A DNA stretch of 64,000 bases. Origin: a virus. Every line of letters begins with the position of its first letter. Within the stretch, counting starts at the first letter, position 1. The translations under genes and the position numbers were made by a program. Of this stretch, positions 42,319 through 53,371 are shown piece after piece. Location of the stretch: positions 1 to 64,000 of IMG/VR virus record IMGVR_UViG_3300020281_000021. One strand, written 5' to 3'. A model generated the notes under the pieces. That model saw only the letters and a program-made list of their open reading frames with translations, had not been told where the DNA came from and did not search any database.

Positions 42319-43368
42319 CTAGTAACCTCCTCCATAGTATCCACCGCCACTTGATCCTGATGATCCTGACGACCCAGAGGATCCTGAGGAGGAAGAAGAA
42401 GATGAGGAGGAAGAAGAAGAACTTGAAGAGCTTGAACTAGAAGAAGAAGAGCTACTGCTCGAGCTACTACTACTGCTACTACCACTACTGTAAGTATTTT
42501 GATCAGTCGTTGTAGATCCATCCCCAGTGAACGCTCCTGCTGAGTCGAAAGGCGACAATGTTGATGCAACATTCGTGCCATTGATTGTAGACCCTGTGCC
42601 AGGTGTATACACTCTGGACGTAAGTTGCTGTTGTGCCAAGAATGTGATACTTGGTGTTTTTCCGATTTCGGTCGTATATTCCTTTTTCGTCGGTTTGAAG
42701 ATTTCTTGGACTGTGCGGAAAGTAGTCTTTGTTTCCTTTCCAAAGACATCTACCTCTAATTCGTCGTTTGGCAAATAAGACACCAAACTGAAGAATTCCT
42801 CTACAAAGTCATCTAGGTATTCTCGACGTAAAATGTAAATAAGACGTTTTCGCTCATTTTGCCTCATTTCGTGTTGATAGTAAGAAATGGGTCTTACAAG
42901 ATCTGCCTGTGGAATCACTTCACCGCCAGGTAAGGTAAATTCAAAGTTTTGAGGCACTTCCATGTCCTCTTGCAAATACACTCTACCGTCTCTTTTGACC
43001 TCTTTAGTGACCCAATGCCTAGTTTTACCAATATCACTAGGATTTGTAAAATTGTATTTCCTTACAATATACTCAGTCAACTCATATTCATTCATTGGCC
43101 AATCATTGTATAGATTGGTTATTTCGTTGCAAAGTAGAATAACCCAATCATACTTAGTATCATTGTAAAACTTCTGAGCGAGTTGATCTGGTCTTTCGCT
43201 GTTTTTGATGTAATATTTCTCAAATCCTAAAATGATGTCATCCAACTCATCACGAATTTTGACTCTACGGAAGAGATTCTTCGCATTAATATAGGGAGAC
43301 GTGCTATCTTGACGATAACCAGTCTTTCTGACCTTGATGTTAGGTAAGTAGGAAAAGTATTGACTCAT
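42319..43368 (-). CDS. 53: gp53 baseplate wedge with poly-Ser/Gly tail
   Basis: 349 residues. Wedge component linking neighbouring wedges. The N-terminal two thirds match gp53: MSQYFSYLPNIKVRKTG, then QLAQKFYNDTKYDWVILLCN and EYELTEYIVRKYNF (LysM-like region). Unusual is the C-terminus: after about residue 290 there is a run of 32 serines, then four SSG repeats and a GGGYYGGGY end. All six serine codons are used, so it is not simple DNA slippage. T4 gp53 is 196 residues. On the minus strand, overlapping gp48 by four bases. Confidence 0.88.
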   Translation of the reverse strand: MSQYFSYLPNIKVRKTGYRQDSTSPYINAKNLFRRVKIRDELDDIILGFEKYYIKNSERPDQLAQKFYNDTKYDWVILLCNEITNLYNDWPMNEYELTEYIVRKYNFTNPSDIGKTRHWVTKEVKRDGRVYLQEDMEVPQNFEFTLPGGEVIPQADLVRPISYYQHEMRQNERKRLIYILRREYLDDFVEEFFSLVSYLPNDELEVDVFGKETKTTFRTVQEIFKPTKKEYTTEIGKTPSITFLAQQQLTSRVYTPGTGSTINGTNVASTLSPFDSAGAFTGDGSTTTDQNTYSSGSSSSSSSSSSSSSSSSSSSSSSSSSSSSSSSSGSSGSSGSSGSSGGGYYGGGY

Positions 43369-44817: not shown

Positions 44818-45284
44818 GTTTATTCAAAGACGTAAAAGAGCTAGCAGGAGGGCGTAGTCAATCTAAGGATTGGTATCGCTCACAGGTTAGATATGGTCTA
44901 GAGTCTTTAGGGCGTCCTATCAGAGAAGGTGATATTCTATTCTATGACTATGTAGCACAATCACAACGATTAGACTGGTATGACATGCACCCACTAACCC
45001 TTGTGACTGATGTAGACAACTTTTTAGGACAGTTTAGTGGTGGTAATATCCACTATTTACGCCCATCTGCAAGGCAAATAGTAGGAAAATCATGGGCAGG
45101 AGGTGCAAATACATATCCTTCGCGTTGCTATCATAAATACTTTATGTCTAGTGCATCAAATATATACATAGTGCCACCTTCGGCATTTACAGATTATGTC
45201 CCACTGCCATTAGAGCAGTTTCTATTTACAAGAATGGGAGTCAAAGTGCCAGTGCCTAGTAGCGTAATCTGGAGCAGAGTATGA
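44814..45284 (+). CDS. conserved virion-assembly protein, unknown
   Basis: 156 residues. The segment REGDILFYDYVAQSQRLDWY, followed by DMHPLTLVTDV, has the FxYD...LxxYDxxPL pattern repeatedly seen in T4-like marine phages. Its place between gp4 and a tube-like protein suggests a structural or assembly function. Not assigned. Confidence 0.6.
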   Translation: MSLFKDVKELAGGRSQSKDWYRSQVRYGLESLGRPIREGDILFYDYVAQSQRLDWYDMHPLTLVTDVDNFLGQFSGGNIHYLRPSARQIVGKSWAGGANTYPSRCYHKYFMSSASNIYIVPPSAFTDYVPLPLEQFLFTRMGVKVPVPSSVIWSRV

Positions 45285-46114
45285 GCTACAAACAACCCAA
45301 TTCAATAAACACTTTTAGAGAGTTAATCGGGACAGGTAATAAAGAACCTGCAAGATCTAATCTCTTCCAAGTGGTAATTGACCCGCCACCTGTTATGACA
45401 AGTGTTGGCGGTGACTTTGCTGAGCAGTCTTTGACTGGTAACCAATTCCTTGATAACGCACTTGGATTCATCGGTATCGAAGACCAGACGCAGATGAGGA
45501 AATACCGTGAGCATGCTGATATGATGAATTACTATGCTGACACTGTGAGTATACCTGGCAGACGTATTACTGTTGGCACAGTAAGAGACGTTGGTGCAAT
45601 GAGAAGATTTGCCACTGATACTACTTTTAGTGAATTGCAAGTATCATTCTTGCTACCTAAAGACATGTATCATAGAGAGTATTTTGAGAGATGGATGAAT
45701 TACACAGCATCCGACTCAGAGAATAGAGTGGGTATGTATGATCAATATACAAGTAAACTTCGTCTAATTAAATGGGAATTAGCATCCAACTACGTTGGAA
45801 AGCAGACTAGGACTAAAGATAATGGTCAAAAAGCAACCTATATGCAGCGTTTCAACGGTGTATCTGCCTGTTGGACAATGTATGGAGCATTTCCATTTGA
45901 CATGTCTGCAATCACACTAAATAATGGACCTACGGATCTAATTAAATTGGATGTCTCTTTCTATTACGAGAGATACCGTATGGACACACCAAACAATGCT
46001 AAGATGTTTAAAGGTGCACTTAAGGATGTCCAAATTCCAATGGACAACTCTTCTGTGCTTGATTCACTTAGCATAGATTCCAGTCTCGATAACTTCGTCG
46101 GTATTGGGGTCTAA
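45281..46114 (+). CDS. tail-tube-like baseplate protein (gp54-like)
   Basis: 277 residues. The tube-protein fold is suggested by YYADTVSIPGRRITVGTVRD, TDTTFSELQVSFLLPKDMYH and FDMSAITLNNGPTDLIKLDV, typical of gp19/gp54-like proteins. In a neighbourhood with gp48, gp26 and gp51, the most likely role is gp54, the tube initiator on the baseplate. An additional tube-like adaptor remains possible. Confidence 0.7.
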   Translation: MSYKQPNSINTFRELIGTGNKEPARSNLFQVVIDPPPVMTSVGGDFAEQSLTGNQFLDNALGFIGIEDQTQMRKYREHADMMNYYADTVSIPGRRITVGTVRDVGAMRRFATDTTFSELQVSFLLPKDMYHREYFERWMNYTASDSENRVGMYDQYTSKLRLIKWELASNYVGKQTRTKDNGQKATYMQRFNGVSACWTMYGAFPFDMSAITLNNGPTDLIKLDVSFYYERYRMDTPNNAKMFKGALKDVQIPMDNSSVLDSLSIDSSLDNFVGIGV

Positions 46115-46141: not shown

Positions 46142-46852
46142 ATGCCATTACCCAAAATTGCACTACCTGAGCATGACCTTAAAATCCCGATCACGGGTAA
46201 GAAACTTACTTACCGTCCTTTCCTTGTTAAAGAAGAGAAACTCCTCTATCTCGCCATGGAATCGAAGGATGAAAAGGAGATGGTTAAGGCAGTTAAAACT
46301 ATCATTAAGAACTGCACGTCTCTCTTGGACAAGGAAGTTGAAAAACTCGCGACTTTTGAAATTGAGTATGTTTTCCTCAAAATCAGATCAAAAGCGGTCG
46401 GAGAGGTTAGTGAATTCAAGGTAACAATGCCTGATGATGGTGAAACACAGGTGGATGTATCAGTGCCTTTAGACAAGGTTGAGTTACAAGTACCTGATAA
46501 TCATAATCCTAAAATCATGTTTACTGATGATGTTGGAGTCGTAATGAAGTATCCTTCACTCGACATTTTCGTCCAACAGAATATGACAGATGGTGAGCAA
46601 ACCATTGATGACGTTTTCCAACTTGCAGCAAGTTGTATCGGTCAAGCATTCGATGGTGATGAAGTTTATGATAGTTTCACTAAAAAAGAAGCAGTTGACT
46701 TCCTAGAGAGTCTGAATTCAGACCAATTTGCGAAGATCCAAGAATTCTTTGAAACCATTCCAAAACTCAGTTATACCATGAGTGTGAGGAATCCTAAGAC
46801 CAAAAAAGATAATGACATTGTATTTGAGGGCTTAGCAGCTTTTTTCGCATAA
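46142..46852 (+). CDS. 26: gp26-like baseplate hub assembly protein
   Basis: 236 residues. MPLPKIALPEHDLKIPITGK, YRPFLVKEEKLLYLAMESKD and PSLDIFVQQN match the T4 baseplate protein gp26 family. The last codons contain T-TTT-TTC (46840-46846) three bases before the TAA (46850-46852), a -1 slippery heptamer, with gp51 in the -1 frame; see findings. The gp26-gp51-giant gene order parallels the G-GT-tape order of lambda-like tails. Confidence 0.88.
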   Translation: MPLPKIALPEHDLKIPITGKKLTYRPFLVKEEKLLYLAMESKDEKEMVKAVKTIIKNCTSLLDKEVEKLATFEIEYVFLKIRSKAVGEVSEFKVTMPDDGETQVDVSVPLDKVELQVPDNHNPKIMFTDDVGVVMKYPSLDIFVQQNMTDGEQTIDDVFQLAASCIGQAFDGDEVYDSFTKKEAVDFLESLNSDQFAKIQEFFETIPKLSYTMSVRNPKTKKDNDIVFEGLAAFFA

Positions 46853-46891
46853 GTCTGTTGCATGATAGTCTTGAAAACCTATACAAGACTA
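46840..46891 (+). promoter_or_regulatory. candidate -1 ribosomal frameshift signal (gp26 to gp51)
   Basis: Slippery T TTT TTC (46840-46846) in the gp26 frame, stop TAA at 46850. Downstream hairpin TAGTCTTG (46866-46873) with CAAGACTA (46884-46891), 8 bp and a 10-base loop, 19 bases after the heptamer. The -1 frame runs on without stop through RISLLHDSLEN into gp51. Confidence 0.65.
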
Positions 46892-47049
46892 ATTTTGCTT
46901 TGATGCAGCATCACAAGTATTCTTTGACTGAGTTAGAGAATATGATCCCATGGGAGAGAGATGTCTATGTTAATTTGTTACTAGCCTATCTTCAAGAAGA
47001 AGAAAGACGCCGTGCAGCAGAAAATAACAGGAATCGAGTTAATCTCTAA
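46858..47049 (+). CDS. 51: gp51-like baseplate hub assembly protein, probably made by frameshift
   Basis: 63 residues if read alone. FALMQHHKYSLTELENMIPW and ERDVYVNLLLAYLQEEERRR match the gp51 family. There is no ATG at the start: the best stand-alone start is TTG 46858, with no clear ribosome site. The frame is -1 relative to gp26, so it may be expressed as a gp26-gp51 fusion. The stop overlaps the next ATG. Confidence 0.82.
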   Translation: MHDSLENLYKTNFALMQHHKYSLTELENMIPWERDVYVNLLLAYLQEEERRRAAENNRNRVNL

Positions 47050-50000
47050 TGTCAGCAATACGGTCATTCGTTACTGTTAAACCTTTCAAGTCCACGACTA
47101 CGGTCGGCACCAATATGAATGGACTTCGGAAGAGTGTGAACAGACTCGGACAGACCACTGAGGGCATCGGTAAGTCCATCGAGCAGATGGCAATCATTAC
47201 TGAATTCCAAAAGGATTACATTGTAGGCAAAGTCAAGACAGATAGAAAATATGATGTAGATAAGGATAAAGAGAAGAAACTTATCGCTTCACGCCTAAAA
47301 GTCCAGAAGAAAAGAGAGAAGTTACGAGGAAAGAGAGACAAGTCTGCGGACATGTCTAAGAATCTAGAGAAAGGCAAGGAGATAGCGAAGGAGAAAGAGA
47401 ATAGAAAGAAGGAATTGACTCCTTTCCAGAAGATGTTGGATAGGATCGGTGGATTCTTCAGCTCAATTTTTAGTGCATTTCTCTTGTTTGGTGGTCTCGA
47501 CTGGATGTCGAAGAATGGAGAAGCAATTAAACAAACATTTAAAGTAGTAGCATCTCTAGTTAAGTTTGTATATAAGATAACGAGTTTTGGTGTTAATAAT
47601 GTCTTAAATGGACTGACCAATATGTTTGGTCGGACAGATAATTTAGGAGAGAATAAAATCAATAGGGTATTCCAATTCTTTAAAGGAGGAATGCAGTTAT
47701 TGGTAGGTCTTGCAGCACTTAGAGGTGCACAATACTTACTCATGCCATGGAAGTTGTTTAGTGATGTAGGTAAACTAACCAATATCTTTGAAGGTGCTAG
47801 AAAGACTGAGCAGGGTGCTAAAGAAGCAACTGAAAGAGTAAAAAACGGATATTACGACAAAAAGACTAATAAGTTTTATACTAAAGAAGAGTATAATACG
47901 ATGCGTAAGGCAGCTCGTAAGCAGCCTGGCGGATTAAAAGCATTTGAGAATAGAGTTAGACCGACGTCTAAGATCGGTGGCATGAAGATGGGTGCTACCA
48001 GACGTATGGGTAATGCATTCAAAGGATTAAAAGGAAGGATACCTGGCGGTGGTGCCACAATGTTGGCAGGTGCTACATCCGTAGTTGGTGGTATCGGTCG
48101 CATCATGGGTGGAGATAGAGAAGGAGAGGCAAAAGGCACAGCAGCAGGTGAAGGTGTAGGTAAAGCAATCGGTGGTGTAGCGGGAGCAGCAGCAGGTGGT
48201 GCATTGTTACCATTCTTAGGACCTTTCGGACCTATGATTGGTGCTGCTATTGGTGACTTCTTAGGTGGATTCATTGGTAGTAAGATAGGACCTATTATTC
48301 AACCTATCTTTGAGCCTATTGCACGAGCATTTGGAATGATGAAGGACATATTCCTAGCTCCTCTCTTGCCAGTGCTTGAGCCAATGAAAGAGTTACTCGG
48401 CACATTCTTTAAGGCATTGGGTAATATTGTCGGCACTATAATGAAGGCAATTATACCTATTACAAAGTTTGTAGGTTTTGTATTAGGTGGTGCCATTAAG
48501 ACAGTCTTTAAGGTATTGTCGTTTACCTTCAATTTAATTAAGAATATTGTCGCATTTACTTTAAATCCTATAGGATTTGCATGGGATGTTATAAGACGTA
48601 AGGATCCTGGTAGAGATATAGAATTAGATCAGGTAGCAAATGCAAAAGGATCAGAGAAGAAACCAGATCTTGAGCAGTTTGATCAGGGTGGAGAATTTAG
48701 AGGTAGAAGTCAGACTCCTAAATTTGATAAGAATAGAGATAGAGCAACTTTTACTCCAGCTCCTACTCAGCAGGATACTAAACCTAAGATATCATCTAAG
48801 AATAGACTCACACCATCACCTTTGATGGGATTAGCACTAGCAGTAGATGTTTTAGGTAAGGGTCTAGTTGCTGCTATTACTGGTGGTATCGCACTTTTTG
48901 GTATATTTGCACCTAACGTCAAGAAGATATTAGGTCCTCAACTGTCAGTAGTATCTCAGATTTTTGGAGGTGGTGCATCTGCAAGCTCAGGTGGTAGTGG
49001 TGGTGTTAAAGCAATTCCTGTGCCACAGGTTGACTTGATGGCAGAGGAGAGAAAGAAACCACAGAGTGATTTGTCTACAACTATCAAGATGATAGGTGTA
49101 GGTAAGAATAGTCTTATTGGTATTCTACAGAGAGCTGTAGATACAATGGATACCAATGAAGATACAGAAGAAATGGCAGTGGGTGGTCTTCTCATGGGTG
49201 CTGCCATTGGAGTTGGCACCTTTGTCAAGAAGATGATCACCAAGAAGAAGAGATCTTCTAGGACTGGTATGGGTGAATCTCCTTCTATTGGCATGTATAG
49301 GAGAATGGATCAGAAGATCCAAAGGAAGAAAGAGATACAGGGATATTCACAAGGTGGTTTGTTATCAACCAATGGAGCAGTTGCTGATGTTAAACTGACA
49401 CCTCAAACTCCATTCAGTGATTATGCTCTACACCATAATAAATCTGATAGTCATCCATATAACAACAATAGACTAGGTGGTCATCCTATCGTACCTAGAG
49501 ACTATGTTGCAGTAAGAGATTGGAATAAACCAGGATTAGATAGAGGCACACCAGTTGTTGCAGGTGTTACTGGTAAAGTTGTATATGCAGGTGGTGACAG
49601 TCATAACACTGTGGTGATTTCTAATCATGGTAAGGACAGGATGCAATTCCACCACTTTGACAGTATTAAAACCAGTGTAGGATCAATGGTAGGACCTAAG
49701 TCTGTCATTGGATTGCAAGGAAATAAACCTAGTGGATCAGTCCATATTCACTTAGATGCATCGCCAACTGATCATAGATCGTTTGCTGCAGCACAACTTG
49801 GTGCAGAGGTAGAGGGTGACACAGATGGTGATATGCCACAGACACAAGAATTTAGAGGTCAAACACCTCAACCTAAGATGAAAGGAGCTAATCCTGCAGC
49901 GATACCTGCTGCTGATGCTGTCCCTACAGGAGAAAGTGTGCCTACAGCAGGATCAAGTGTTAAGGATCTTATTACTAAGGTTGTAAATATATTCAGTAAA

Positions 50001-50255
50001 TTCAAGAGAAAACCTAAGAAAGAAGACGTCCCAATCCAAGCATCAATAGACAAATATCAACAACTAGAAAATAGGAATGAAGCAGACCGTCAAATGATGA
50101 TAGATGGAGCAAAGGCAGAGGAAGCACTTGAGCAGACTGACACTCCTGTATGTTTACCTATATCCATGCCTATCGCAATAAATAGTGGAGGTGGCGGTGG
50201 TCAGACCTACAAGAAAGTCACTCAACCATTGACACCTGGTATCCTTAGACGATAA
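47049..50255 (+). CDS. tape-measure-like giant tail protein with M23 peptidase domain
   Basis: 1068 residues. An N-terminal coiled-coil region (about 60-135) is followed by a hydrophobic span IGGFFSSIFSAFLLFGGLDW, a Gly/Ala-rich zipper (GVGKAIGGVAGAAAGGALLP) and more hydrophobic helices to about 520. Residues about 800-910 form an M23/LytM peptidase-like domain: GTPVVAGVTGKVVYAGGDSH, VVISNHGKDRMQFHHFDSI and VHIHLDA (HxH). This is typical of virion-associated murein hydrolases in tape measures. It would define tail length and open the cell wall during DNA entry. Follows gp51 directly. Confidence 0.75.
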   Translation: MSAIRSFVTVKPFKSTTTVGTNMNGLRKSVNRLGQTTEGIGKSIEQMAIITEFQKDYIVGKVKTDRKYDVDKDKEKKLIASRLKVQKKREKLRGKRDKSADMSKNLEKGKEIAKEKENRKKELTPFQKMLDRIGGFFSSIFSAFLLFGGLDWMSKNGEAIKQTFKVVASLVKFVYKITSFGVNNVLNGLTNMFGRTDNLGENKINRVFQFFKGGMQLLVGLAALRGAQYLLMPWKLFSDVGKLTNIFEGARKTEQGAKEATERVKNGYYDKKTNKFYTKEEYNTMRKAARKQPGGLKAFENRVRPTSKIGGMKMGATRRMGNAFKGLKGRIPGGGATMLAGATSVVGGIGRIMGGDREGEAKGTAAGEGVGKAIGGVAGAAAGGALLPFLGPFGPMIGAAIGDFLGGFIGSKIGPIIQPIFEPIARAFGMMKDIFLAPLLPVLEPMKELLGTFFKALGNIVGTIMKAIIPITKFVGFVLGGAIKTVFKVLSFTFNLIKNIVAFTLNPIGFAWDVIRRKDPGRDIELDQVANAKGSEKKPDLEQFDQGGEFRGRSQTPKFDKNRDRATFTPAPTQQDTKPKISSKNRLTPSPLMGLALAVDVLGKGLVAAITGGIALFGIFAPNVKKILGPQLSVVSQIFGGGASASSGGSGGVKAIPVPQVDLMAEERKKPQSDLSTTIKMIGVGKNSLIGILQRAVDTMDTNEDTEEMAVGGLLMGAAIGVGTFVKKMITKKKRSSRTGMGESPSIGMYRRMDQKIQRKKEIQGYSQGGLLSTNGAVADVKLTPQTPFSDYALHHNKSDSHPYNNNRLGGHPIVPRDYVAVRDWNKPGLDRGTPVVAGVTGKVVYAGGDSHNTVVISNHGKDRMQFHHFDSIKTSVGSMVGPKSVIGLQGNKPSGSVHIHLDASPTDHRSFAAAQLGAEVEGDTDGDMPQTQEFRGQTPQPKMKGANPAAIPAADAVPTGESVPTAGSSVKDLITKVVNIFSKFKRKPKKEDVPIQASIDKYQQLENRNEADRQMMIDGAKAEEALEQTDTPVCLPISMPIAINSGGGGGQTYKKVTQPLTPGILRR

Positions 50256-53200
50256 TGGCAGAAAAACCCAAGACAGTTATTAAAAAACCTGCCCTTTATA
50301 AGATGGTATCTTTTAAGGGGGTGGATAAGAGTGCCAGTAAGGAAACACAAGAGATTACTACAGGTCTAAAGAAGAATCTTAATGCAGCAAATAGTCTTGG
50401 TGGCACATTAAACTCTATTGCATTGGCACTAGAGAAACAGACTGTTGCCATGAAAGAGATGGTGCAATTCCAAATCTCACAGAAAGGTATTGATGAGAGA
50501 TATAGGAAGTTAAAAGATTCTAATGAAAAACGTGATGCAGCACGTCAGAAGATAGAGGATAAGAAAGAAGCACAAAGAGAGAAGAGAGACGACGCAGCAG
50601 AGGTAAAGACTACATCTGGAAAGGTTATTGCAGGTTTTGTTGGTGTAGCAGCAAAAACATTTGGTGGTTTCTTTGCGATGCTTGGTAGTATTGCAACATG
50701 GTTATTTGCAGGGATAGTTAAGTTTGCAATCTTTGACTGGATCATGAAAAATCCAGATAAAGTCAAAGCATTAGCAAAAGGTTTATATGCTATAGGTAAG
50801 TGGGCATTTGGAGTCACCAGCTTCTTACTTGGCACAGCAGGAAAAGGTTTAATAAAGTTTTTAGAGAATCCTTTGTCACTACGAGGATTCTTTGGTGTGA
50901 TGCAGTTTGCACTGGGCTTAGCACCTATATTTGCAGCATTCACGATACTTAGGAATCCATTAGCAGCACTCAAAGGCATAAAAGCAGTTGTGGGCATGCT
51001 TTTTGGCATGGTCAAAAACCTGATGAAGGCAGGTGGACTAGGAGGAAAGCTCAGGAAAGTAGCAAGTAGCGTTCTGCGTAGTAGAGTTGGTGGTGCAGCA
51101 GTATTTGGTGGTGCAGCATATGCAGCAGCACGGTTATCTGGTGCAGAGCAAGGAGAAGCAATAGGCACAGGTGTTGGTGCAGGTGCAGGTCAAGCAATCG
51201 GTGCTTCTCTGGGTGCAGCGACTGGAATACCTGGTGCAGGTGCGTTGGCAGGGGCAGCAGGTGCATTTGTTGGTGGTGCTGTAGGTGGTGGTATTGGTAA
51301 AGCAATGCAACCCATCATTGATCCATTCATGAAATTCTTCGGAGCAATCGGAGAAGTATTTGCATCTGTCTTTGCACCTATACAACAGGCAGCAGGAGAT
51401 TTCTTTAAGGCACTTGGTGGTGCATTTAATAAGGTCTTAGACTTTATTGAGCCTGCTATGCCAATGATCAAGAAGGTTGGTGCATTCTTTGGCACGGTAG
51501 CATTTGCACCTTTGATTGGTTTGATGAAGGCATTGACTTTTATCTTAAGTTTCTTTGCAGGAGGCGGTAAGAAAGACGAGAAACCAAAAGTAGAAAAACC
51601 TAAACCTAAACCGAAGAAGGAATTCAAACCTACGAAGAGGGTATCTGGTCGATTCGACATGGATACTGGTCAGGCATATATTAATGACAAAGAGGTTTCT
51701 ACAGATGAATACATGGCTTATTACAATATGAGCTATGCTGAGAAACTTAAAAACTATGGCGTTACGATTGAAAAGGCAGCAGGTGGTATGGTAGTCGTCC
51801 CCAAGATGGACGATGGTGGAGAAGCATCCGAGGGTGAATCCAAGTTGGGTGCTATGTTTGAATTTGCAAATGACTACAGACAGATGATGACTCGTAAGGT
51901 CATGGCACTGTCACAGTTGTTGGCACTACCTATCAAAGCGGTTGGTATCTCTATCGTATCTGTTATTGCAAAGGTAGGATCTATGTTTGCAAAATTCTTG
52001 CCAGGTCCTCTGAAGTCAATGATCGGCAACTTTATTGCACCACTAGCAGAAGTATTTGGTGTCCCCATGAGTGTCATGGGAGCAGAGAGCTCAGGTGGAT
52101 CAGGCGGTGTTGACGAAGATAAGTCACAGATACAAGAAGAAGGTAATCAGATCAAAGCTCTCAACAAGATGATTGGTGGAGGTGAGAAGTCTGTTATTGG
52201 ATTAATGAATAAAATAATCCATGCAGTATCACCTAAGAGCAGCGAAGGTGGATGGTGGAATCCTGGCAACTGGTTTGCAGGTGGTGGTGTAATACAACCA
52301 CAAGTCCCAGAGTATGCTAGAGGTGGATGGATCAACGGTCCTCAGTCTGGTTATCCTGTAAGTTTGGATGGTGGTAACTCTGTATCATTCATTGGTCACG
52401 GTCTAGAGTGGGTTGGAATGCCTAATAGAGCAAGTGGTGGATCAGCATTCATCGTCCCATTCAACACACCTAAGACAAAAACAGATTCTGGTCTTACTGG
52501 TAGAAGAATGAGAGAAGCAGTAAGTAAAGGATATGCAACACCAAAAGGATTTGCAGATGGTGGTGAAGCAAAATATAAATCTATCAATTCATATGAATCA
52601 CTATACAAAGCGGGAGGTTATGTTGATGACCATGGTATCGCAGCAGGTATGCGTATGGTTGACGTATACTATCCTACATACACAATCAAGACAGGTTTCT
52701 TAGGTCTAGGTAAAAAAGAGCAGAGAAGAAGATTCAAATTTGGAAGTAGTGATAATATGCACATGTCTACAAAGGACTTTGTGACATGGAAGATGGCAGA
52801 CGTATGGGGTAAGGTTGAGCCACCAGAAACTAAACCTACAGAGACGATTAAGGGTGATAAAATCAAACCAAACATTGAGCCTATCCAGAAGAGAAGGAGA
52901 GGATCGGGTGCTAAAGATAGAGGAAGAGAAGGTGGTAACTTTAGTGGCGATCAACAGAAGAATGTAAGAGGTGAGTATGCATTTAAGGGTAAAGGTGGCA
53001 CCGAGCCACAGAATCAGCAGTTAGATCCTGCAACAAGGGTAGTTAAAATGACCCTAGATAAAGCAGGTCAAGTATTCAACAGCGTTAAAGACGTTGGTAA
53101 ACGGTTACTTGGTTTTAAATCTGAAGAGAATAGTAACAAGAGAAAGACTAAAGAGAATGCAAACATGGCTGTCATGCAGGCAGTTGAAGCTCAGAATCAA

Positions 53201-53371
53201 AAGGTTGCAGCAATGGGTGCAGGTGGTGGAGAAGCATCACAACCAGAGGAAGTGCCTATCGTAATACCTAACTCAAATCAATGGAATGAAGCAGATCCAT
53301 ACTTTGTATCTAGATTCTCTAGATTCAGAGAAACACAAGCTGACTTGACCTACACACCTACACTTAAATAA
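50255..53371 (+). CDS. second tape-measure-like giant tail protein (paralogue without M23)
   Basis: 1038 residues. Same architecture as its neighbour: charged coiled coil (about 60-120), hydrophobic helices (GFFAMLGSIATWLFAGIVKF), and a Gly/Ala zipper (EAIGTGVGAGAGQAIGASLG), with a similar segment MQPIIDPFMKFFGAIGEVF. No M23 motif is seen; the C-terminal half is Gly/Ser/Lys-rich with several possible linkers. It is probably a tandem duplicate that diverged, or a second component of the inner tail core. ATG overlaps the previous stop. Confidence 0.65.
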   Translation: MAEKPKTVIKKPALYKMVSFKGVDKSASKETQEITTGLKKNLNAANSLGGTLNSIALALEKQTVAMKEMVQFQISQKGIDERYRKLKDSNEKRDAARQKIEDKKEAQREKRDDAAEVKTTSGKVIAGFVGVAAKTFGGFFAMLGSIATWLFAGIVKFAIFDWIMKNPDKVKALAKGLYAIGKWAFGVTSFLLGTAGKGLIKFLENPLSLRGFFGVMQFALGLAPIFAAFTILRNPLAALKGIKAVVGMLFGMVKNLMKAGGLGGKLRKVASSVLRSRVGGAAVFGGAAYAAARLSGAEQGEAIGTGVGAGAGQAIGASLGAATGIPGAGALAGAAGAFVGGAVGGGIGKAMQPIIDPFMKFFGAIGEVFASVFAPIQQAAGDFFKALGGAFNKVLDFIEPAMPMIKKVGAFFGTVAFAPLIGLMKALTFILSFFAGGGKKDEKPKVEKPKPKPKKEFKPTKRVSGRFDMDTGQAYINDKEVSTDEYMAYYNMSYAEKLKNYGVTIEKAAGGMVVVPKMDDGGEASEGESKLGAMFEFANDYRQMMTRKVMALSQLLALPIKAVGISIVSVIAKVGSMFAKFLPGPLKSMIGNFIAPLAEVFGVPMSVMGAESSGGSGGVDEDKSQIQEEGNQIKALNKMIGGGEKSVIGLMNKIIHAVSPKSSEGGWWNPGNWFAGGGVIQPQVPEYARGGWINGPQSGYPVSLDGGNSVSFIGHGLEWVGMPNRASGGSAFIVPFNTPKTKTDSGLTGRRMREAVSKGYATPKGFADGGEAKYKSINSYESLYKAGGYVDDHGIAAGMRMVDVYYPTYTIKTGFLGLGKKEQRRRFKFGSSDNMHMSTKDFVTWKMADVWGKVEPPETKPTETIKGDKIKPNIEPIQKRRRGSGAKDRGREGGNFSGDQQKNVRGEYAFKGKGGTEPQNQQLDPATRVVKMTLDKAGQVFNSVKDVGKRLLGFKSEENSNKRKTKENANMAVMQAVEAQNQKVAAMGAGGGEASQPEEVPIVIPNSNQWNEADPYFVSRFSRFRETQADLTYTPTLK

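Follow-up and report, generated by a model that had tools for sequence, protein, structure and literature searches.

A 64,000-nucleotide stretch of viral DNA (positions 1 to 64,000 of IMG/VR record IMGVR_UViG_3300020281_000021; hereafter, the window) was analyzed at the junction of its gp26-like and gp51-like reading frames. These frames very likely specify a G/GT-type pair of tail assembly chaperones (TAC) made by −1 frameshifting, with putative stimulation by an upstream Shine-Dalgarno (SD)-like element and a downstream RNA stem. The source is a T4-like ocean cyanobacterial virus, and the closest named phage found was Cyanophage P-TIM40 (Kyanoviridae, Libanvirus; 92.6% identity over the stretch).

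The gp26-like open reading frame (ORF), the proposed short form (TAC-N), occupies 46142 to 46852 on the plus strand, as do all features below unless stated. It encodes 236 amino acids and was matched to the Pfam family T4_baseplate (PF12322, E 8.9e-66) and to phrog_150 (E 1.7e-69). Its 3′ end reads GCT TTT TTC GCA TAA, in which the slippery heptamer T TTT TTC (46840 to 46846) keeps the reading phase set by the gp26 start codon (46142) and is followed, one codon (GCA) later, by the zero-frame stop TAA (46850 to 46852). Past the heptamer, the first new codon of the −1 frame is CGC at 46846; the extension translates as FFRISLLHDSLENLYKTNF... and ends at 47049, its stop (47047 to 47049) included. 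An in-phase heptamer at the end of gp26 and a −1 frame running open from the slip into gp51 were both claimed in the original prediction, and both were recovered here, the former exact to the base and the latter to position 47049. The extension, a putative gp51-like C-terminal domain (TAC-C), was matched to phrog_634, the gp51 family (E 2.6e-28), over positions 60–120 of 121, with a weaker match to the end of phrog_150. The first ATG of this frame lies at 46903, within the conserved domain; the mechanical ORF list begins at a TTG (46858), and the P-TIM40 record (KP211958) begins the gp51-like ORF at an internal ATG that would remove conserved residues.

Relatives were taken as the best 80 of 598 IMG/VR candidates (47–89% protein identity) and, together with the window, gave 81 loci. 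Three were removed as ≥ 95% alike, leaving 78 non-redundant loci; one (L029), too short to show gp51, was unscored for phase and left out of the alignment (77 aligned loci). The heptamer was in place in 81/81 loci and gp51 lay in −1 phase in all 80 scorable loci, so that the conservation proposed earlier as a check on the frameshift was borne out. The Phe-Phe pair at the junction was written as TTT TTC in all 78 non-redundant loci, and in all 78 the preceding codon ended in T, whereas the 84 FF pairs elsewhere in gp26 were written as TTC TTT (54), TTT TTT (25), or TTC TTC (5) and never as TTT TTC. Under background Phe codon use, this choice has a naive probability of ~1e-52, with relatedness ignored. 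Among the 68 mechanically predicted ATG ORFs of the window (≥ 80 codons), the heptamer is one of three in-phase TTTTTT and the sole X XXY YYZ heptamer starting ≤ 16 nt from the end of a stop codon.

A more distant search, with gp26 of phiM19, C48C1, and PWKp5 as queries, gave 108 loci, 6 of them unusable. With identical junctions counted once, 71 distinct loci remained, none identical to any junction of the 80 relatives; scans with Vibrio 6E35-1b gp26 and Ahp1 gp26 as queries gave zero loci. All 58 distant loci outside Ackermannviridae carried an in-phase TTTTTTC or TTTTTTT, with the −1 frame open for at least 40 codons past the stop. In eight of these 58, the zero-frame stop lay 13–31 nt from the heptamer start, as against 7–10 nt in the others, and the heptamer was still kept. 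The T6 heptamer was present in P-TIM40, P-SSM2, S-PM2, P-SSM7, ME01, C48C1, phiM19, Vibrio 6E35-1b, Mendera, Ahp1, and OLIVR5, and was not found at the PWKp5, Vibrio K364, and CHI14 junctions; in CHI14, genes 26 and 51 are divergent, as in T4. On these sequence comparisons, a programmed −1 frameshift at gp26/gp51 is very probable.

The first candidate stimulator is GAGGG (46826 to 46830), an SD-like element absent from the original prediction, far from any gp51 start and separated from the heptamer by 9 nt. This agrees with the spacing in the three-part signal of the dnaX type, in which the SD sequence stands about 10 nt before the heptamer. Duplex energies with the 16S rRNA tail were calculated for 73 of the 78 loci. 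The mean upstream of the heptamer was −7.39 kcal/mol, with the motif in 73/73 loci, compared to −2.29 for gp26 starts; randomly chosen gp26 positions averaged −1.43, with the motif at 15% of them. Codon choice follows the same direction: GAG served as the Glu codon eight before the stop in 61/78 loci, as against a 32% share of the other Glu codons, and the Gly codon after it was GGG in 15/78 (18/451 elsewhere). When the region was recoded synonymously, the null mean was −5.89 against an observed −7.35, and 0/200 null sets reached the observed value (lowest −6.39).

The second candidate stimulator is RNA structure downstream of the heptamer. The segment 46847–46917 was predicted to fold at −16.8 kcal/mol (z −2.49; 4/200 shuffles as good or better). 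Across loci, 50-nt segments beginning at −3 or +9 relative to the heptamer end were on average 4.1–4.3 kcal/mol more stable than shuffles, with an excess of −2.3 for the −15 segment and between +1.0 and −1.4 at the remaining offsets. The 8-bp hairpin reported earlier at 46866 to 46891 (46866–46873 paired with 46884–46891) does exist. In a clade of 15 loci, set by protein identity and blind to structure (the only stem group so chosen), RNAalifold recovered seven of its eight pairs. Changes on both sides were seen in five of the eight pairs and the covariation score was reached by 0/500 shuffles; the count of further pair types was not above shuffles (320/500). Other loci carry different stems, starting 5 or 10 nt past the heptamer, in groups picked by fit. 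Stem types A, B, and C fitted 29, 15, and 15 loci, versus 9, 0, and 7 for slid controls, counts that are biased by the fit-based choice of groups. Lineages thus appear to retain some stem close to the site even as the paired bases differ among them. Inverted repeats of the GGTCCATATGGACC type were observed 10–24 nt past the heptamer in L033, L036, L037, L041, L043, and similar loci.

Several other structural candidates were set aside. No single consensus stem was found over the 77 aligned loci. A possible outer stem at 46856 to 46910 (46856–46863 paired with 46903–46910), taken from the single-sequence minimum free energy fold, showed double changes in 0/8 pairs and so is unsupported by covariation. 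For stem A over all 77 loci, 30/500 shuffles reached the covariation score and a −1 slide scored higher. For stem B over the 77 loci, 0/500 shuffles did so, but a +2 slide paired nearly as many cells (54.7% vs 55.5%).

The protein comparisons connect this junction to T4. Using hhalign, with T4 profiles of two sequences each and E-values given per single comparison, cyanophage gp26 was aligned to T4/CHI14 gp26 (E 1.8e-13, probability 98%), the cyanophage −1 product to the T4/CHI14 gp51 profile over its positions 200–244 (E 2.3e-5, probability 76%), and T4 gp26 to the N-terminal 200 residues of T4 gp51 (E 2.1e-12, 98%). By these alignments, T4 gp51 looks like a gp26-like and a gp51-like domain in one gene. 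Given these homologies and the divergent orientation of the T4 genes, T4 seems to hold the short and long forms as two genes, where the window has one gene and a frameshift. An AlphaFold model of gp26 (mean pLDDT 86) had as its best VIA match the HK97 tail assembly chaperone 2ob9 (Z 7.0, rmsd 4.0, 85 residues), followed by YqbN (3klu, Z 6.3) and then by a match at 3.1. The earlier analogy to the lambda G-GT pair gains support from both the fusion-like T4 gp51 and this HK97 match, and a role of gp26/gp51 in tail assembly as chaperones is likely. PDB searches by sequence, with gp26 and T4-type gp51 profiles, gave unrelated proteins (best E 0.56 and 0.4).

One relative offers a view of the virion. 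In phage S-CREM2, the gp26-like gp206 has the heptamer at its junction. Table 3 of the S-CREM2 virion proteome lists ORFs 203, 204, 208, and 209 and not 206 and 207 (PMC10665884). As with lambda G/GT, neither product is in the virion table; this fits chaperones weakly, and a junction peptide would escape a search limited to annotated ORFs.

The proposed mechanism is as follows. Most ribosomes would end gp26 at 46850 and release the short chaperone TAC-N. Some would slip one base back at T TTT TTC, where TTT TTC would re-pair as TTT TTT, and would continue in the −1 frame to give a 302-residue gp26-gp51 fusion (TAC-NC), whose tryptic peptides would be DNDIVFEGLAAFFR at the junction and then ISLLHDSLENLYK. 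Pairing of GAGGG (46826–46830) with the 16S anti-SD sequence, together with the downstream mRNA stem, would promote the slip. By analogy to lambda gpG/gpGT, the short form would coat the tape-measure protein, the long form would recruit tail-tube subunits through its gp51-like domain, and both forms would depart before the virion is completed.

The lambda heptamer is G GGA AAG. The window differs from lambda gpG/gpGT in its heptamer (T TTT TTC), in the SD-like element and lineage-specific stems, and in the T4-like contractile tail. Xu, Hendrix and Duda reportedly described G/GT pairs in long-tailed phages in 2004. Vladimirov, Gautam and Davidson (2022, Virology 566:9) are said to have treated the TAC genes of T4-like phages, with frameshifting conserved in several T4-like groups and separate genes 26 and 51 used in T4 itself. 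Among published sources, one describes G/GT frameshift pairs in long-tailed phages with T4 excepted (PMC5009743), one notes poly-T slippery sequences in TAC-N genes of T4-like phages (PMC12846349), and one reports that some T4-like phages have a short gene plus a longer fused gene instead (PMC10885494). The last two sources cite the 2022 study and agree with it in part. The idea of a frameshifted gp26/gp51 pair thus appears right and, for T4-like phages, was reportedly anticipated in large part by Vladimirov et al. No description of an SD-like element, stems, or a dnaX-like three-part signal at cyanophage gp26/gp51 was found in the literature searched, which left most subscription papers outside it.

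Three further systems provide comparisons. The Escherichia coli dnaX −1 signal has an upstream SD, the slippery heptamer A AAA AAG, and a downstream stem (PMC5600365). The window signal would likewise be three-part, with a different heptamer and with a covarying stem that lies 19 nt away in the window clade, or stems 5 or 10 nt away in two groups. For the TAC locus of phage Adele (Vandenendeviridae/Andersonviridae), a −1 frameshift has been inferred from alignment, with a poly-T motif GTTTTT at the TAC-N end (PMC12846349). Poly-T at the TAC-N end and a conserved open −1 frame are shared with the window, whereas the motif GTTTTT and the phage families differ. For T4 gp26 and gp51, chaperone or cofactor roles have been proposed (PMC9024508). 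Their domains are homologous to those of the window, while the two T4 genes are divergent, gp51 has 249 amino acids, and no frameshift is needed.

A number of observations weigh against the frameshifted chaperone pair. The recoded mean of −5.89 kcal/mol indicates that much of the SD-like strength comes with the conserved Glu-Gly-Leu, so that the element is partly forced. The covarying stem begins 19 nt past the heptamer, which is farther than usual and farther than the stems of other lineages. The 46866–46891 pairing was not formed in the closest relative (L001) or in two further clade members (L006 and L015), and none of the three stem types fitted 20/77 loci. An X XXY YYZ heptamer was missing in all 13 distinct Ackermannviridae loci. 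Among the proteins, the direct match of cyanophage gp26 to T4 gp51 was weak (E 5.4e-4, probability 30%), the HK97 match at Z 7 is middling, and a Foldseek search of the gp26 model against the PDB gave no match at E ≤ 0.001 (HK97 chaperone at rank 7, E 2.0). Over all 78 loci, single-difference codons before codon 12 of the −1 frame were 4692 synonymous and 4400 non-synonymous, with stronger constraint at codons 12–30 (15177 and 4879). In 62/78 loci the −1 frame has an ATG shortly past the gp26 stop, at +5, +8, or +14; the outgroups phiM19, 6E35-1b, and Mendera, and also K364, have one that overlaps this stop, and the Mendera record marks a ribosome site.

In the same 13 Ackermannviridae loci (among L179–L196), the gp51-like ORF is still in the −1 frame, with a TAATG overlap in three (L194–L196) and ATT at that place in ten.

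The near-stop ATGs make separate synthesis of gp51 possible in relatives, and no nearby ATG serves it in the window. A combined scheme, in which frameshifting gives the fusion and reinitiation adds free gp51 in ATG-bearing lineages, accords with the joint presence of heptamer and nearby ATG in 62/78 loci and is nonetheless rather improbable. At the position where such an ATG is most frequent, the residue is hydrophobic and variable (M 42, L 36 of 78); an SD is nearly always absent there, the ATG may be just a Met codon, and the window has no such ATG. Less probable again, and indeed very unlikely, is a separate small gp51 reinitiated at an ATG just past the gp26 stop, with the heptamer incidental. 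Annotators do begin gp51 at such ATGs (e.g., 6E35-1b and Mendera), and the near-stop and stop-overlapping ATGs counted above favor it. Against it, only 1/62 near-stop ATGs has an SD motif and their mean duplex ΔG of −0.83 is weaker than the background of −1.43. For 16 loci, the window among them, the distance from the gp26 stop to the first ATG is at least 23 nt (at least 50 nt in 15/16). Fifteen loci, including the window, carry no ATG within 12 codons of the slip, and the −1 frame upstream of any ATG is under coding constraint there (269 synonymous vs 135 non-synonymous single-difference codons, counted pairwise and so non-independent). Reinitiation also leaves the invariant TTTTTTC and the one-gene fusion of T4 unexplained. 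Of the earlier claim that gp51 has no ATG or ribosome site at its start, the ATG part applies to the window and to the 15 further loci rather than to the family; where a near-stop ATG is present, a ribosome site is nearly always missing.

Transcriptional slippage on the T6 run, which would give a −1 fusion mRNA, has the six-T run in its favor and little chance otherwise: bacterial polymerase slippage usually takes longer runs of about 8–9, and the phase-locked heptamer, SD-like element, and mRNA stem point to the ribosome. Conservation of TTTTTTC for Phe-Phe coding alone can practically be dismissed, since the FF pair is indeed near-invariant in the aligned proteins but its spelling as TTT TTC at every junction and at none of the other gp26 FF pairs is left unaccounted for.

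Around the frameshifted pair, a tail tube gene lies upstream at 45281 to 46114 (phrog_45 tail tube, E 1.4e-42); the position directly upstream of gp26 lacks a tail tube annotation in the S-CREM2, S-N03, ME01, Mendera, PWKp5, and K364 records. Downstream, 47049 to 50255 encodes a 1068-amino-acid protein with an M23 peptidase domain (PF01551, E 2.2e-7), a candidate tape-measure gene. Its best match, phrog_90 (E 2e-190), is labelled endolysin, and phrog_973 tape-measure was matched weakly (E 2.3e-5); the gene after it matches phrog_167 (E 1.7e-8), a weak basis for tape-measure identity. The junction had originally been placed upstream of the tape-measure genes: large genes do follow it, and no strong family match settles which is the tape measure. 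Two successive genes of > 1000 amino acids at 47049–53371 are named endolysin by PHROGs, and S-CREM2, with a tail of 418 nm, has two endolysin-named genes at the same place (154483–159180 and 159184–163554; 73 and 71 unique virion peptides). Both pairs, comparable in position and name, may encode tape measures and not lysis proteins. On the minus strand at 42319–43368, a protein ends in a long Ser run, then Ser-Gly repeats.

The gp51 stop overlaps the next start as TAATG in the window (47047–47051). The next gene starts −11 to +7 nt from the gp51 stop in 65/73 loci, and in 64 of the 68 loci used for this duplex test, no SD motif was found at that start. The idea that tape-measure initiation is coupled to the shift was unsupported, as 49/68 window genes also lack an SD and 34/68 have overlapping or adjacent starts. 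A broader scheme, in which the SD-like element and heptamer stay constant beside a stem rebuilt several times among cyanophages (at least three unrelated pairings, at 5, 10, and 19 nt) and the slip may also set tape-measure dosage, with only shifted ribosomes reaching the overlapping SD-poor next start, is tentative and seems unlikely as a whole.

The signal at gp26/gp51 is short and strongly conserved and would make an easy reporter system for SD and stem stimulation in cyanobacteria. If the frameshifted pair is correct, at least 7 records among the 22 examined begin gp51 too late or leave it unannotated, and the label "baseplate hub subunit / assembly catalyst" probably calls for replacement by tail assembly chaperone. 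Cyanophage gp51 was described by Sullivan et al. 2010 (PMC3037559) as being without the first ~200 residues of T4 gp51. Its truncated appearance would then be explained, in that the missing part is gp26, supplied by the frameshift.
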